From: Homoserinimonas sp. OAct 916
GTDB taxonomy: Bacteria > Actinomycetota > Actinomycetes > Actinomycetales > Microbacteriaceae
Direction of reading: 5' to 3'
Length of the DNA: 64,000 nt
NCBI RefSeq assembly: GCF_003260275.1
Contig: NZ_QJHB01000003.1
Location: 62,001-126,000 of the forward strand
In this document: piece after piece, positions 8,437-14,264 of the stretch
Layout of the letters: every line of letters begins with the position of its first letter
How positions within the stretch are numbered: the first letter of the stretch is position 1
Program-made: the position numbers and the translations under genes
The notes under the pieces: model-generated
Seen by the model: the letters and a program-made list of their open reading frames with translations, nothing else
Databases searched by the model: none
What the model was told of the DNA's origin: nothing

Positions 8437-8487
8437 CCCACTACATATTGGGATGGTGCCCGCCAGTCAGCCCGCTATATAGTGGTG
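8437..8487. promoter_or_regulatory. Pair of NrdR-like boxes
   Basis: Two AT-rich palindromic elements fit the NrdR core CWATATATWG with one mismatch each: CTACATATTG (8441-8450) and CTATATAGTG (8475-8484). Their centres are 34 bp apart, near the roughly three helical turns usual for NrdR pairs. Position between the DnaA boxes and the start codon agrees with known NrdR repression of nrd genes. The nrdR gene itself is not in the window. Confidence 0.65.
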
Positions 8488-8525: not shown

Positions 8526-10973
8526 TTGGCAATAACGGTAGTCAAGCGCAACGGCCAGCGTGAGCCATACGATGCGAACAAGATCAACCTCGCGATCGAA
8601 GACGCGGCCTCCGGTCTGGGCGACTCGGTGTCCTGGGTGACGCAGATCGCCACCGAGCTCGAGATCACGCTGTTCGACGGCATCACCACCCAGCAGCTCG
8701 ACGAGGCCGTCATCCAGGTGGCGCTGCAGAACGTCAAGGATGACCCGGCCTTCGACACGGTCGCGGCGCGCCTCTTGCTCAAGACCATCTACAAGCGGGT
8801 GCTCGGCGACTACGGCGACGCCGACGAACTGCTCAGCCTGCACCGCAGCCACTTCGCCCCCTACATCCACCGCGGGGTGGAGGAGGGCCTGCTCGACCAC
8901 CGCTTCACCGAGATGTTTGACCTCGACCGGCTGGCCGAGCAGCTCACCCCGGTCAACGACGAACTGCTGAAGTACATCGGCGTGGTCACTCTGAACAACC
9001 GCTACGGGATCAAGGGGCGCAACGGCGATGCCCTCGAGGTGCCGCAGTACTTCTGGATGCGCATCGCCATGGGACTCACCCTGAATGAGGCCGACCCCAC
9101 CAGCCGGGCCATCGAGTTCTACGAGAAGATGAGCTGCCTCGACTACCTGGCGGCCGGCTCCACCCTGGTCAACGCGGGCACCAGCTACCCGCAGCTGTCC
9201 AACTGCTTCGTGATGGAGATGCAGGATGACATCGAGCACATCGCCAAGTCGACTCGCGACGTGATGTGGCTGACCAAGGGAACCGGCGGAATCGGACTCT
9301 CGGTCACCAAGCTGCGCGCCCAGGGCTCGCCGATCCGCTCGAACAACACCACCTCCACCGGCCCGATCCCGTTCATGCACACCATCGACTCGGTGCTTCG
9401 GGCGGTCAGCCGCGGGGGCAAGAAGTTCGGGGCGCTCTGCTTCTACATGGAGAACTGGCACATGGACTTCCCGGAGTTCCTCGACCTGCGCCAGAACTCC
9501 GGCGATCCGTACCGCCGCACCCGCACCGCGAACACCGCGGTCTGGATCAGCGACGAGTTCATGAAGCGCGTGCACACCGACGATGACTGGTACCTGTTCG
9601 ACCCGCTCGAGGTCGCCGACCTCAACGAGCTGTACGGCCAGGAGTTCTCCACCCGCTACGCCGAATATGTCGCCAAGGCCGAGGCCGGCCAGATGAACAT
9701 GTTCAAGAAGATGAAGGCGCGCGAGCAGTTCAAAGCGATCCTGATGTCCTTGCAGACCACCAGCCACCCGTGGCTGACCTGGAAGGACACCATCAACAAC
9801 CGTGCGCTGAACAACAACACCGGAACCATCCACCTCTCCAACCTGTGCACCGAGATCACGCTGCCGCAGGACCGCGACAACGTGTCGGTCTGCAACCTCG
9901 CCTCGATCAACCTCACCCGGCACCTCAAAGACGGCGCCTTCGACTGGGAGCAGATGGAGCAGAGCGCGCGCCTCGCGGTGCGCCAGCTGGACAACCTGAT
10001 CGACATCACCAAATCGTCGGTGCCGGAGAGCGAATTCTCGAACGAGCAGAACCGGGCGATCGGTTTGGGCGTGATGGGCTTCACCGATGTCACCGAGAAG
10101 CTCGGCTTCTCGTACGAGTCGGAGGAGGCCTACGACCTCATCGACGAGATCATGGAGCACGTGTCGTACGCGGCAATCGACGAGAGCGCGAACCTCGCCC
10201 AGGAGCGTGGCGCCTACCCGAACTTCCCCGGCTCCGGCTGGTCCGAGGGCATGGTCCCACTCGACACCATCGCACGCGCCGAGGCCGACCGCGGCCTGCC
10301 GATCCAGGTGAACCGCACCACCCGGCTCGACTGGGATGCCCTGCGAGAGAAGGTCAAGGGCGGCATGCGCAACGCCACGCTGATGGCAATCGCGCCGACG
10401 GCGTCGATCGGTCTCGTCGCCGGCACCACCCCCGGGCTCGACCCGCAGTTCACCCAGATCTTCAGCCGTTCCACCTCGTCGGGCAAATTCCTCGAGGTGA
10501 ACCGCAACCTGGTCGACAAGCTCCGGGAGGCGGGGCTCTGGGAGCGAGTTCGCGAGTCGATCCTGCGCAGCCAGGGCGACATCCAGACCATCGCTGAGAT
10601 CCCCGACGAGATCAAGGCGACCTTCAAGACGAGCTTCCAGCTGTCGCCGTACGCATTCCTCGAGGTGGCGGCCAGGGCACAGAAGTGGATTGACCAGGCG
10701 ATCAGCCGCAACATGTACCTCGAGACCCGTGACCTCGGCGACATGATGGACATCTACTACGGCGCGTGGGAGCGCGGGGTGAAGACCACCTATTACCTGC
10801 ACTCCAAGCCCCGGCACCAGGCCGAGCAGTCCACCGTGCGGGTCAACAAGACCGAGGACATCGCCGAAGCCGCAAAGGCGACCGTGGGCGCCGGAGCCGT
10901 ATCGGCGGGTGCCACGACTGCGTCCGCTCCGGCCCGCCGCGGTTTCGGCGGCCTGAGCCCGAAGGCCAACTGA
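8526..10973 (+). CDS. nrdA: Ribonucleoside-diphosphate reductase large subunit (class I), main frame
   Basis: Converts ribonucleotides to deoxyribonucleotides with the small subunit at 11180. An N-terminal ATP-cone (from 'AITVVKRNG') is followed by the ten-stranded barrel. With the TTG start the active-site cysteines are Cys227 ('LSNCFVM'), Cys441 with Glu443 ('NLCTEI') and Cys456 ('VCNLAS'); Tyr756-Tyr757 ('TTYYL') are the radical-relay pair. TTG at 8526 is preferred since GAGGA ends 7 bases before it; GTG at 8508 is the alternative. Odd: the 58 residues after the Tyr pair contain no Cys, so the usual C-terminal CxxC or CxxxxC swivel is missing from this frame. A candidate tail is encoded at 10999-11121. 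Confidence 0.95.
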   Translation: MAITVVKRNGQREPYDANKINLAIEDAASGLGDSVSWVTQIATELEITLFDGITTQQLDEAVIQVALQNVKDDPAFDTVAARLLLKTIYKRVLGDYGDADELLSLHRSHFAPYIHRGVEEGLLDHRFTEMFDLDRLAEQLTPVNDELLKYIGVVTLNNRYGIKGRNGDALEVPQYFWMRIAMGLTLNEADPTSRAIEFYEKMSCLDYLAAGSTLVNAGTSYPQLSNCFVMEMQDDIEHIAKSTRDVMWLTKGTGGIGLSVTKLRAQGSPIRSNNTTSTGPIPFMHTIDSVLRAVSRGGKKFGALCFYMENWHMDFPEFLDLRQNSGDPYRRTRTANTAVWISDEFMKRVHTDDDWYLFDPLEVADLNELYGQEFSTRYAEYVAKAEAGQMNMFKKMKAREQFKAILMSLQTTSHPWLTWKDTINNRALNNNTGTIHLSNLCTEITLPQDRDNVSVCNLASINLTRHLKDGAFDWEQMEQSARLAVRQLDNLIDITKSSVPESEFSNEQNRAIGLGVMGFTDVTEKLGFSYESEEAYDLIDEIMEHVSYAAIDESANLAQERGAYPNFPGSGWSEGMVPLDTIARAEADRGLPIQVNRTTRLDWDALREKVKGGMRNATLMAIAPTASIGLVAGTTPGLDPQFTQIFSRSTSSGKFLEVNRNLVDKLREAGLWERVRESILRSQGDIQTIAEIPDEIKATFKTSFQLSPYAFLEVAARAQKWIDQAISRNMYLETRDLGDMMDIYYGAWERGVKTTYYLHSKPRHQAEQSTVRVNKTEDIAEAAKATVGAGAVSAGATTASAPARRGFGGLSPKAN

Positions 10974-10998
10974 GCCCGGCGGGCCCAGGACACCGCTG

Positions 10999-11121
10999 AT
11001 GAACGCACCGATCAGGGATGCACCGAATGTGAATTCGCCGATGCCGAACCACGACGGGTTTGACGCCTATCATGTTCCGGCCGACCCGATGGATGAGTTG
11101 CAGTGCGACTCCTGCCAGTGA
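10999..11121 (+). CDS. Separate 40-codon frame encoding a NrdA-like C-terminal CxxC tail
   Basis: A 40-residue frame that ends 'MDELQCDSCQ' directly before TGA. A terminal Cys pair of this kind is what thioredoxin or glutaredoxin reduces at the end of class I NrdA. It lies 25 bases after the nrdA stop, in the +1 frame relative to nrdA, with AGGA 8 bases before its ATG. The +1 frame is open from 10957, so a +1 frameshift near the nrdA stop (AAC-TGA-G) would also fuse it to NrdA through a Gly/Pro linker. Either a free tail peptide, a recoded fusion, or a frameshift lesion; the sequence alone does not decide. It is too short for most gene callers. Confidence 0.7.
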   Translation: MNAPIRDAPNVNSPMPNHDGFDAYHVPADPMDELQCDSCQ

Positions 11122-11179
11122 CCGAGACTCATGACACCGCAAAACGCGAGAAGCAACTGCAGAACGAAGGAGAGATGAC

Positions 11180-12178
11180 ATGGCGATTCTAGGAACCGGC
11201 GTACAGGAGGGGCTTTTGCTCAAGCCGGTGAAATACCAGTGGGCCATGGACCTCTACGACCAGGCGGTCGCGAACACCTGGTTCCCGAATGAGATCCAGC
11301 TCGACCAGGACATCTCCGACTTCAAGAGGATGACCGACGAGGAGCGTCACGCGATCACGTTCCTGATGAGCTACTTCAACCCGAACGAGCTGCTGGTGAA
11401 CAAGGCCCTGGCCTTCGGCGTCTACCCGTACATCAACGCGGCGGAGTGCCACCTGTACCTGGCCAAGCAGATGTGGGAGGAAGCCAACCACTGCATGAGC
11501 TTCGAGTACGTGCTCGAGACGTTCCCGATCGACCGTGCCGCAGCATACGACTCGCACATCACCGTGCCATCGATGGTTCGCAAGGAGGAGTTCCAGGTCA
11601 AATACATCCGCCGCATGACCGAACAGACCCTCGACATCACCACGACCGAGGGCAAGAAAGACTTCGTGCGCAACCTCGTCGCGTACAACATCATCCTCGA
11701 GGGCATCTGGTTCTACTCCGGCTTCATGGTTGCGCTCAGCTTTCGCCAGCGCAACCTGCTGCGCAACTTCGGTTCGTTGATCGACTGGATCGTGCGCGAC
11801 GAGTCGTTGCATCTGAAGTTCGGAATCAACCTGATCATGACCGTGCTCGACGAGAACCCGGAGCTGCAGACCGAGGAGTTCGCGGCCGAGATCAAACAGA
11901 TGATCCTCGACGGCGTCGAGATGGAGGAGCAGTACAACAAAGATCTGCTGCCTGGCGGCATCCTCGGGTTGAATGCGACCTATATCAACCAGTACGTCAA
12001 GTACCTTGCCGACCGTCGCCTCGAAGAACTCGGCTTCGAACCCGAATACAAGGTGTCGAACCCAGCCAAGTGGATGGCAACCGCCAACGACACCTATGAG
12101 CTGGTCAACTTCTTCGAGTCGACCAACACGTCGTACGAGGCCAACGCGAAGGCCACAGTCGGACAGAAGAGCCACTAG
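11180..12178 (+). CDS. nrdB: Ribonucleoside-diphosphate reductase small subunit, class Ic-like
   Basis: A 332-residue ferritin-fold R2 protein. Metal ligands by spacing to E. coli NrdB are Glu70, Glu101, His104, Glu174, Glu208 and His211. Position 108, where class Ia/Ib proteins have the radical Tyr, is Phe ('EEANHCMSFEY'), and the first ligand is Glu, not Asp. Both features match the Chlamydia-type class Ic enzymes, which use a Mn/Fe cofactor in place of a tyrosyl radical. Tyr319 near the C-terminus fits the relay Tyr. A clear AAGGAGA precedes the ATG. Third frame of the operon, 58 bases after the tail frame. Strong match to R2; subclass is inference from residues. Confidence 0.93.
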   Translation: MAILGTGVQEGLLLKPVKYQWAMDLYDQAVANTWFPNEIQLDQDISDFKRMTDEERHAITFLMSYFNPNELLVNKALAFGVYPYINAAECHLYLAKQMWEEANHCMSFEYVLETFPIDRAAAYDSHITVPSMVRKEEFQVKYIRRMTEQTLDITTTEGKKDFVRNLVAYNIILEGIWFYSGFMVALSFRQRNLLRNFGSLIDWIVRDESLHLKFGINLIMTVLDENPELQTEEFAAEIKQMILDGVEMEEQYNKDLLPGGILGLNATYINQYVKYLADRRLEELGFEPEYKVSNPAKWMATANDTYELVNFFESTNTSYEANAKATVGQKSH

Positions 12179-12190
12179 CACCTCGGCCCA

Positions 12191-12225
12191 TGCGCGCGCC
12201 ACCGATCACGTCGGGGGTGCGCGCA
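12191..12225 (+). terminator. Putative terminator hairpin after nrdB
   Basis: TGCGCGC (12191-12197) and GCGCGCA (12219-12225) form a perfect 7-bp stem, extended by further G-C pairs inward, 12 bases after the nrdB stop. No T-tract follows, as is common in high-GC Actinobacteria. Confidence 0.5.
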
Positions 12226-12399
12226 GCTGCGTCTGGGCGCGCGGTCGAGTCCTACGCGGTTATGAAATCGGTATGGAGACGTTCGCGGAGACCTTCCCGT
12301 GTTGCTATAGGCTCTCAAATGCGAGCGCTGTCGGTCGAAATCTTCGTGAGCCCTCGTGAACGCATTCCGATTCATATCAAGAAATGAGACTTAACGACT

Positions 12400-13305
12400 A
12401 TGCGCAAACGTTTTGCGATCACAGCGGTTGCCATTGCGGCTTCTGCAGCACTGCTGCTCACCGGCTGTGTCAACAACGAGTCACCGTCCGCCACGGATCA
12501 GCCTGGTTCCAGCAAACCGGCGGCAACGACGGTCGACGAGGCCGCAGCTGCCCTGGTTCCCGCCGCGATCAAGGATTCCGGTGTCTTCATCATGGGTGTA
12601 GACGCGACCTACCCGCCGAATGCCTACAAGGACGACGCGGGGGCCCCCATTGGCTGGGAGATCGACCTCGGCAACGTACTGGCAGCGAAGCTTGGTCTGA
12701 AGCCGGAATGGAAATTGGCCGCCTTCGACAACATCATCCCCAGTGTCACCGGCGGAACGATGGATGCGGGCGTTTCCTCGTTCACCGACAACGTGGAGCG
12801 CGAGAAGCAGGTCGATTTCGTCAACTACTACACGGCGGGCATTCTGTGGGCGAGCCAGGCGGGCAAGACGGTCAACCCGGATGACGCCTGTGGCCTCACC
12901 GTCTCGGTGCAGTCCACCACGGTGGAAGACACCGAAGAGCTGCCGGCGAAGAACGACGCGTGCCTCGCAGCGGGCAAGCCGGGGATCAACAAGCTCAAGT
13001 TCGACTCACAGGACCTCGCGACCCTCGCCGTCATCGACGGTCGCGCCGACGCCATGACCGGCGACTCGCCGATCACGGAGTACGCGGTGAGCAAGTCCGA
13101 CGGCAAGCTCCAGGTCGCAGGGAAGTCGTTCGACGTCGCCCCCTACGGCGTTGCGGTGAACAAGGGATCTGAGCTGGCCAAGGCCGTGCAGGCCGCATTC
13201 CAGTCGATGGTCGACGACGGCAGCTACCTGGCGATCCTCAATGACTGGGGCGTCGCCAGCGGCGCGCTGACCGACATCACGATCAACGCGGCGTCGAAGG
13301 GCTGA
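12400..13305 (+). CDS. Polar amino acid ABC transporter, substrate-binding lipoprotein
   Basis: A 301-residue family 3 extracellular solute-binding protein. It starts with a lipoprotein signal ('AASAALLLTGC', acylated Cys at about 24) and a Ser/Ala/Thr-rich linker. The two-lobe domain shows 'FIMGVDATYPPNAYK', 'GWEIDLGNVLAAKLGL' and 'LAILNDWGV', typical of HisJ/GlnH-type proteins. It captures an amino acid outside the membrane and delivers it to the permease encoded 5 bases downstream. First gene of a three-gene operon. Substrate not resolved; glutamine, glutamate, histidine and cystine are all compatible. Confidence 0.93.
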   Translation: MRKRFAITAVAIAASAALLLTGCVNNESPSATDQPGSSKPAATTVDEAAAALVPAAIKDSGVFIMGVDATYPPNAYKDDAGAPIGWEIDLGNVLAAKLGLKPEWKLAAFDNIIPSVTGGTMDAGVSSFTDNVEREKQVDFVNYYTAGILWASQAGKTVNPDDACGLTVSVQSTTVEDTEELPAKNDACLAAGKPGINKLKFDSQDLATLAVIDGRADAMTGDSPITEYAVSKSDGKLQVAGKSFDVAPYGVAVNKGSELAKAVQAAFQSMVDDGSYLAILNDWGVASGALTDITINAASKG

Positions 13306-13310
13306 TCCCA

Positions 13311-14264
13311 ATGGCGTCCGCAGGCCACACCGACCGGGCGGCACAGGCCACTGTGCCGCCCGGCGGCGGGGACGATGCTCCACTGATCCGAGCGATTCCC
13401 CTCCGGCACCCATGGCGTAACACGTTCGCCGTGATCGTGTTGCTGCTGTTCGCGGGCTTCCTCTACGATGCATTCTTCCTGCGCACCGAGTACCACTGGG
13501 ATCAGTTCGGAAAGTACTTGTTCGATGCGCGGGTCTCGCAAGCCGCGATGAACACCCTGATCATCACCGTGCTCTCCATGGTGTCGGCGATTGTGCTGGG
13601 CGTGATTCTCGCGGTGATGCGGTTGTCGCCGAACCCGGTCTTCAAATCGATTTCCTGGGTCTACCTGTGGGTGTTCCGAGGGACACCGGTGTATGTGCAG
13701 CTGGTGTTCTGGGGGTTGCTGTTCACCCTGTACAAGTCGTTTCGGGTCGGCCTGCCGTTCCAGACGCCCTGGGTGGATATACCTTTCAGTTTCAGTATCG
13801 ACGTGTTCTGGCTGGCCGTTATCGGATTGGCGTTGAACGAGGCCTCCTACATGGCCGAGATCGTACGAGCCGGTATCCTTTCGGTCGACCGCGGCCAGGA
13901 GGAAGCGGCTACGGCCCTCGGGATGAGCTGGTCCCAGACCATGCGGCGCATCGTGATCCCACAGTCAATGCGCATCATCATCCCCCCGACGGGCAACGAG
14001 GTGATCTCGATGCTCAAGACCACATCGCTGGTGATCGCTGTTCCCTACAGTTTCGAGCTCTATGGCAGAACCAGGGACATTGCGGTGTCGATCTTCGATC
14101 CGATTCCGCTGCTGCTCGTCGCCTGTGCCTGGTACCTACTGTTCACCTCGATCCTGATGATCGGTCAGCACTTCCTGGAGAAGCGATTCGCCCGGGGCCT
14201 GACAATGACGGATATGACCAAGCCGGATGTGGTCGAACCACAAAGCAAGGCGGATCACGAATGA
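13311..14264 (+). CDS. Amino acid ABC transporter permease
   Basis: A 317-residue inner-membrane permease of the HisM/GlnP type. After a hydrophilic N-terminal extension of about 40 residues there are five to six hydrophobic helices. The EAA loop that docks the ATPase is visible as '[20 protein letters not shown]' followed by '[14 protein letters not shown]'. '[11 protein letters not shown]' is the family's other signature. It overlaps the ATPase gene by ATGA, so the two are translationally coupled. It probably works as a homodimer, since only one permease gene is present. Confidence 0.93.

Follow-up and report, generated by a model that had tools for sequence, protein, structure and literature searches.

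The stretch of DNA analyzed here, referred to as the window, comprises 64,000 nucleotides of the genome of Homoserinimonas sp. OAct 916 (Microbacteriaceae; contig NZ_QJHB01000003.1, positions 62,001 to 126,000). It carries nrdA and nrdB, which encode the two subunits of a class I ribonucleotide reductase (RNR), and between them a small open frame. With a probability of roughly 0.88, this frame is a genuine gene that encodes the redox-active C-terminal tail of NrdA, the tail being produced as a free peptide. The locus is organized as follows.

8438-8485, plus strand: putative NrdR box pair 5' of nrdA, CCACTACATATTGGGA and GCCCGCTATATAGTGG, with a start-to-start distance of 32 bases
8526-10973, plus strand: nrdA, catalytic subunit of a class I ribonucleotide reductase, with a complete ATP cone and barrel but no C-terminal cysteine pair (start codon taken to be TTG)
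10935-10952, plus strand: RRGFGG motif close to the NrdA C-terminus
10987-10990, plus strand: Shine-Dalgarno-like AGGA, 8 bases 5' of the ATG of the tail gene
10999-11121, plus strand: predicted independent gene encoding the redox tail peptide of NrdA (40 amino acids, C-terminal CDSCQ)
11180-12178, plus strand: nrdB, radical-generating subunit (best chain match 1syy_A, class Ic-like)

The identities of NrdA and NrdB were confirmed by Pfam and NCBIfam scans. The window NrdA matches PRK06539 with 1617 bits (cut-off 988) over model positions 1-794 of 822, so the part that it is missing is its end. The ATP cone, all-alpha and barrel domains of a class I NrdA are all present, and an alignment to the solved chain 5im3_A shows that three active-site cysteines are kept (residues 227, 441 and 456). 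As an earlier interpretation of this locus (the sequence-only reading) had stated, nrdA stops at 10973 (TGA at 10971-10973; C-terminal end ...APARRGFGGLSPKAN) and encodes no cysteine beyond the Tyr-Tyr pair. All cysteines of this NrdA are residues 204, 227, 305, 441 and 456; NrdA of this type has no C-terminal cysteine pair on its own chain. The same reading had correctly described the second frame, which lies at 10999-11121 in the +1 frame relative to nrdA, follows the AGGA at a good spacing and translates as MNAPIRDAPNVNSPMPNHDGFDAYHVPADPMDELQCDSCQ, with the C-terminal end PADPMDELQCDSCQ. The +1 frame is indeed open from 10957 onward in the window. The tail peptide had zero matches in the Pfam, NCBIfam and PHROGs family libraries.

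Forty fetched nrdA regions together with the window (41 in all) covered 40 of the 41 genera with NrdA; genus g23 is missing from the set, its contig being cut off within nrdA. A peptide gene with the same C-terminal core is present directly 3' of nrdA in 38 of the 41 regions (40 genera), and because of this recurrence, the tail frame cannot be a chance one. The linked tail is absent in the other three regions, L072 (genome G015), L091 (G076) and L108 (G145), whose genomes each yielded an unlinked copy. The tail peptides have 21-40 residues (about 25). The split NrdA has zero cysteines after the Tyr-Tyr pair in all 40 readable cases, L070 having been left out of this count and of the offset counts given below as its nrdA frame breaks early (genome 86% complete). 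Codon differences within the core amounted to 0.39 per codon at third positions versus 0.13 at second positions for the linked copies, and to 0.31 versus 0.04 for the unlinked ones. As third positions vary far more than second positions, the tail reading frame is under selection. The conservation of a separate frame across genera supports one option of the sequence-only reading, namely that the tail is supplied in trans.

That reading had also proposed to compare relatives for a separate versus a fused tail, and the outcome differs between families: the tail is separate in the 38 Microbacteriaceae regions mentioned above, and fused in frame in 20 of 20 NrdA proteins from other Micrococcales families (68-75% identity). 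These end in a CxxCQ motif, e.g. GGVACPVDPMERLQCESCQ, located after a linker that contains GFG motifs; such motifs are also seen at the ends of split NrdA proteins. A more distant NrdA type with a different fused CxxC tail (L170-L178) was set apart from this count. In a tree of 64 NrdA proteins (42 split and 22 fused), the split state corresponds to one change with a support of 100. At the level of sequence, the free tail is homologous to the fused NrdA tail of other Micrococcales, and it was split off once, on the lineage to those Microbacteriaceae that retained NrdAB. The fused tails carry a third cysteine (ACPVDP in L150-L161) at the position occupied by Val in most free peptides (YxVPVDP).

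A pattern scan of named genomes returned at least 120 stretches, from which 119 motif copies were read and labelled by a simple script as fused (14), linked (42) or unlinked (63). At least one “unlinked” label is doubtful, as the fused gene seems to be cut in the contig of L359 (Demequina). By taxonomy, 87 of the 120 stretches listed (at least 120 in total) belong to Microbacteriaceae, and 19 have no family. The fused rows that were looked up come from Actinotalea, Cellulomonas, Serinicoccus, Nocardioides, Aeromicrobium, one “Actinomycetes” and one “uncultured bacterium”, and Demequina titles are also among the matches listed. Two entries speak against a strict family limit: L327, from a metagenome bin named Cellulomonadaceae, with a linked free peptide, and L333, from a bin named Acidobacteria, with an unlinked one. 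Either entry may reflect an error of binning or naming.

A profile built from 15 tail peptides was searched against 299 Microbacteriaceae genomes and matched 135 of them, with at least two matches in 118 of the 135 and up to six per genome. NrdA of the window type was found in 129 of the 299 genomes, and a comparison of the two lists showed that all 129 also hold a tail match (Fisher test for co-occurrence, 3e-78, with the relatedness of the genomes ignored). Class Ib NrdE was present in 157 of the 299 genomes, G190 alone having both NrdE and NrdA; genera g74 and g89 each include members with NrdA plus the peptide and members with NrdE and no peptide. When 12 genomes were searched with PF02867, tail-less NrdA was the sole large subunit in 11. 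In G015 (0.9 Mb), the sole RNR large subunit found and the sole tail peptide found are about 33 kb apart. The window's own genome has a second tail copy on another contig (59% identity over 29 residues) and also encodes a class II NrdJ of 950 amino acids (3639-6491 of L179, i.e. G000:C115:15000-25000). The notion that the tail serves a second RNR was rejected, as class II NrdJ has its own cysteine-rich C-terminus and 11 of the 12 genomes hold only tail-less NrdA.

Unlinked chromosomal copies were examined in 40 fetched loci, in which 41 peptides were read: 35 (from 35 genomes) are of one kind, and six are extra copies. Same-strand downstream neighbours of the usual copy are conserved in 32-33 of the 35 cases; the tail gene is upstream of these neighbours, representatives of which are a FAS1-like dehydratase (MaoC-like) and MurB. 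An NrdR-like box pair precedes all 35 usual copies, each pair scoring above all 60 dinucleotide shuffles, and none of the six extra copies. The scoring used what we take to be the NrdR box consensus. By this score, the pair upstream of nrdA in the window reaches 23 of 32 and is the sole site of at least 23 on either strand of the window, versus 20 for the best among 200 shuffles of the 196-base upstream region. An NrdR gene was found in all 12 genomes tested. The usual unlinked copies have two boxes before the gene with a spacer of 16-17 bases, inside the range of 14-17 bases given for working NrdR boxes in PMC12051234. With such a pair, the unlinked tail gene looks like a member of the RNR regulon. 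The usual complement is one copy beside nrdA plus another elsewhere in the genome that has an NrdR-like operator to itself.

A PafBC-like promoter motif, scanned with a pattern that is presumably that of the RecA-NDp promoter, was present at 13 of the 35 usual unlinked copies (22 being without it), versus none among 802 control stretches taken from these loci. The name and role of this PafBC-dependent promoter follow PMC6789036. In many unlinked copies (L109-L148), an inverted repeat, GGAATGACA...TGTCATTCC, is located between the two boxes; it may contain the -35 element or be a binding site for a different regulator. Extra chromosomal copies without NrdR-like boxes were seen in L118, L120, L122, L130 and L138 and are possibly derived from integrated elements.

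Tail genes are also carried by mobile elements. A tblastn search with a composite query matched 12 phage records, of which five are true: Clavibacter phages CN1A and CMP1 (two records each) and Pontimonas phage phiPsal1, all with the tail motif at the end of an unannotated frame. The remaining seven matches are weak and look like chance. The same search matched 19 plasmid records from Clavibacter, Leifsonia and Gryllotalpicola, and the peptides were read in five of them (L034-L038). The Leifsonia plasmid peptide of 33 residues (L036, 4962-5063) carries the annotation “ribonucleotide-diphosphate reductase subunit beta” (WP_223361114.1). A pattern scan of IMG/VR yielded at least 120 viral stretches with the tail core. 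Among the 120 listed, the residue before Gln is Leu in 112 and Phe in eight, and the tail frames are far too short for NrdA (at most 173 codons in 112 of the 120). Viral free peptides of L205, L215, L220, L268 and L277 keep the third cysteine seen in fused tails.

Among 123 fetched virus and phage stretches, NrdA was found in one (L232) and NrdB in three (L232, L244 and L268). PF02867 was present in one of 50 whole mobile records, again L232, although the IMG/VR records may be fragments; the three complete phage genomes and the five plasmids within these 50 gave no match. In L232, the tail gene is upstream of nrdA, and the phage NrdA ends in RKGFGFKSAN, with no cysteines there. Sufficient upstream DNA was available for 126 mobile copies, and among these L232 alone has an NrdR-like pair scoring at least 21, the score of the weakest chromosomal copy. 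Its NrdA (9955-13317, 1120 amino acids) has an insert at the catalytic SNLC site, and the intein-splicing match of this insert is below threshold (33.1 bits versus a cut-off of 35.8). The unlinked copies with NrdR-like boxes, together with those of phages and plasmids, extend the feature beyond what the sequence-only reading had described.

In class I RNRs, an active-site disulfide is re-reduced by a C-terminal cysteine pair, as stated in PMC9669993 and PMC5704485. In the mechanism that we propose, the CDSC or CESC pair of the free peptide would enter the NrdA active site after each turnover and reduce the disulfide of catalytic Cys227 and Cys456, and the oxidised peptide would then depart to be re-reduced by thioredoxin or a redoxin. 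The tails of yeast Rnr1 act across the dimer. Docking of the peptide would be non-covalent, via the conserved YxVPVDPMDxLQ segment, perhaps together with the (K/R)GFGFGG end of NrdA. In phages and plasmids that have no RNR large subunit, the tail genes may serve to boost or safeguard the activity of the host's RNR. The best reading of these data is thus a class I RNR whose reductant arm would act in trans as a tiny, separately regulated and mobile peptide. We give about even odds to the further proposal that the supply of this detachable arm sets RNR activity, the arm being a mobile, separately controlled subunit (by NrdR-like boxes, and in some genera by a PafBC-like DNA-damage promoter), and that phages and plasmids, by means of NrdR-free copies, drive the RNR of the host while bringing none themselves.

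Programmed +1 frameshifting near the nrdA stop, which would join the tail to NrdA and which the sequence-only reading had offered as an option, agrees with the +1 frame being open from 10957 in the window, but the layout in relatives makes it very improbable. Among the 37 clean cases, the offset of the tail relative to nrdA is 2 in 28, 1 in five and 0 in four, and this variation speaks against programmed frameshifting, for which the offset should be constant. Moreover, the first possible tail start is within -1 to +6 bases of the first base of the nrdA stop in 31 of the 37, overlapping or nearly touching it; G015, G076 and G145 hold the tail elsewhere and none beside nrdA; and the tail gene precedes nrdA in the phage contig L232. 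A conserved recoding event at the nrdA end is ruled out, and translational coupling of nrdA and the linked tail gene is likely. Least probable of all is a sequencing error or a recent frameshift lesion, also considered in the sequence-only reading: only the broken look of nrdA favours it, and it is contradicted both by the recurrence of the same arrangement in 38 of the 41 regions and by the selection on the tail frame.

An unlikely but more serious alternative is that the peptides are regulators or inhibitors, such as tail mimics or thioredoxin decoys, and that NrdA is re-reduced otherwise. This notion would fit both the copies on phages and plasmids that have no RNR large subunit and the multiple matches in most peptide-bearing genomes; however, every NrdA genome has at least one copy, NrdA has no tail cysteine of its own, and the motif is the same as that of the fused tail in relatives. 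Post-translational joining of the peptide to NrdA by ligation or trans-splicing would restore the ancestral architecture, but we consider it no more credible than frameshifting, the Pfam scan of the window NrdA having revealed no intein domain (no search was aimed at ligases or split inteins). Several points nevertheless weigh against a reductant arm acting in trans. Peptide expression, NrdA binding and electron transfer are predicted from sequence, and a peptide of 21-40 residues has no known fold. The unlinked and mobile copies might act as regulators or inhibitors instead of serving NrdA, and reductant-arm and regulator roles may coexist. The initial single-sequence search was insensitive, matching 27 of 59 relatives at E 1, 14 of them below 0.01; the remaining 13 matches look like chance, save that in G044, which is a fused tail. 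Finally, six of the 170 genomes without an NrdA match have a tail match: G135, G194, G273, G314 and G316 (77-94% complete), for which incompleteness is probably the cause, and G163, which carries class Ib NrdE plus a weak peptide match (E 4e-4).

Having a catalytic chain without the redox cysteines and a separate chain that bears them, the system classifies by sequence as a split RNR. It resembles NrdJa/NrdJb of Pseudomonas aeruginosa and relatives, in which the redox cysteines of the catalytic chain are on a second chain, NrdJb, from the same operon and, according to PMC4520616, NrdJb provides thiol-disulfide exchange. This precedent shows that a separate redox chain can act from outside. However, the present system is not a member of the NrdJab type, which is class II, B12-dependent and proteobacterial, with an NrdJb of 229 residues; here, the enzyme is class I with an adjoining nrdB, the peptide has 21-40 residues, an extra NrdR-boxed gene is located elsewhere, and phages and plasmids carry copies. 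The fused NrdA of Demequina, Actinotalea, Cellulomonas, Serinicoccus, Nocardioides and Aeromicrobium (PRK06539 type) resembles the present system in its catalytic subunit and in the type of tail motif, e.g. CPVDPMERLQCESCQ, but bears the tail on the NrdA chain itself, behind a linker that is rich in Ala/Pro and contains GFG motifs. The class I large subunit of phage Aeh1 likewise consists of two chains, but the split is reportedly inside the catalytic part, with a linked homing endonuclease gene, in one phage and with no free tail peptide.

In the titles and abstract openings of open-licence literature, we found no description of a free NrdA tail in Microbacteriaceae or their phages, and no open-licence literature was found that treats NrdR together with Microbacteriaceae and ribonucleotide reductase. 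According to PMC4520616, no split RNR other than the proteobacterial NrdJ has been found in a non-viral organism. If our reading is true, there would be a cellular class I RNR whose essential reductant arm is a separate tiny peptide, and a small, often unannotated phage or plasmid gene may tune the deoxyribonucleotide (dNTP) supply of the host. It would also provide a clean system for measuring how the tail works, because the tail can be added, mutated or titrated independently of NrdA.

The NrdB subunit of the window appears to be class Ic-like, with Phe replacing the radical Tyr. Its residue F108 (window 11501-11503) aligns with a Phe of chain 1syy_A, the best solved match, at what we take to be the position where the radical Tyr is expected; 1syy is presumably the class Ic protein of Chlamydia trachomatis.
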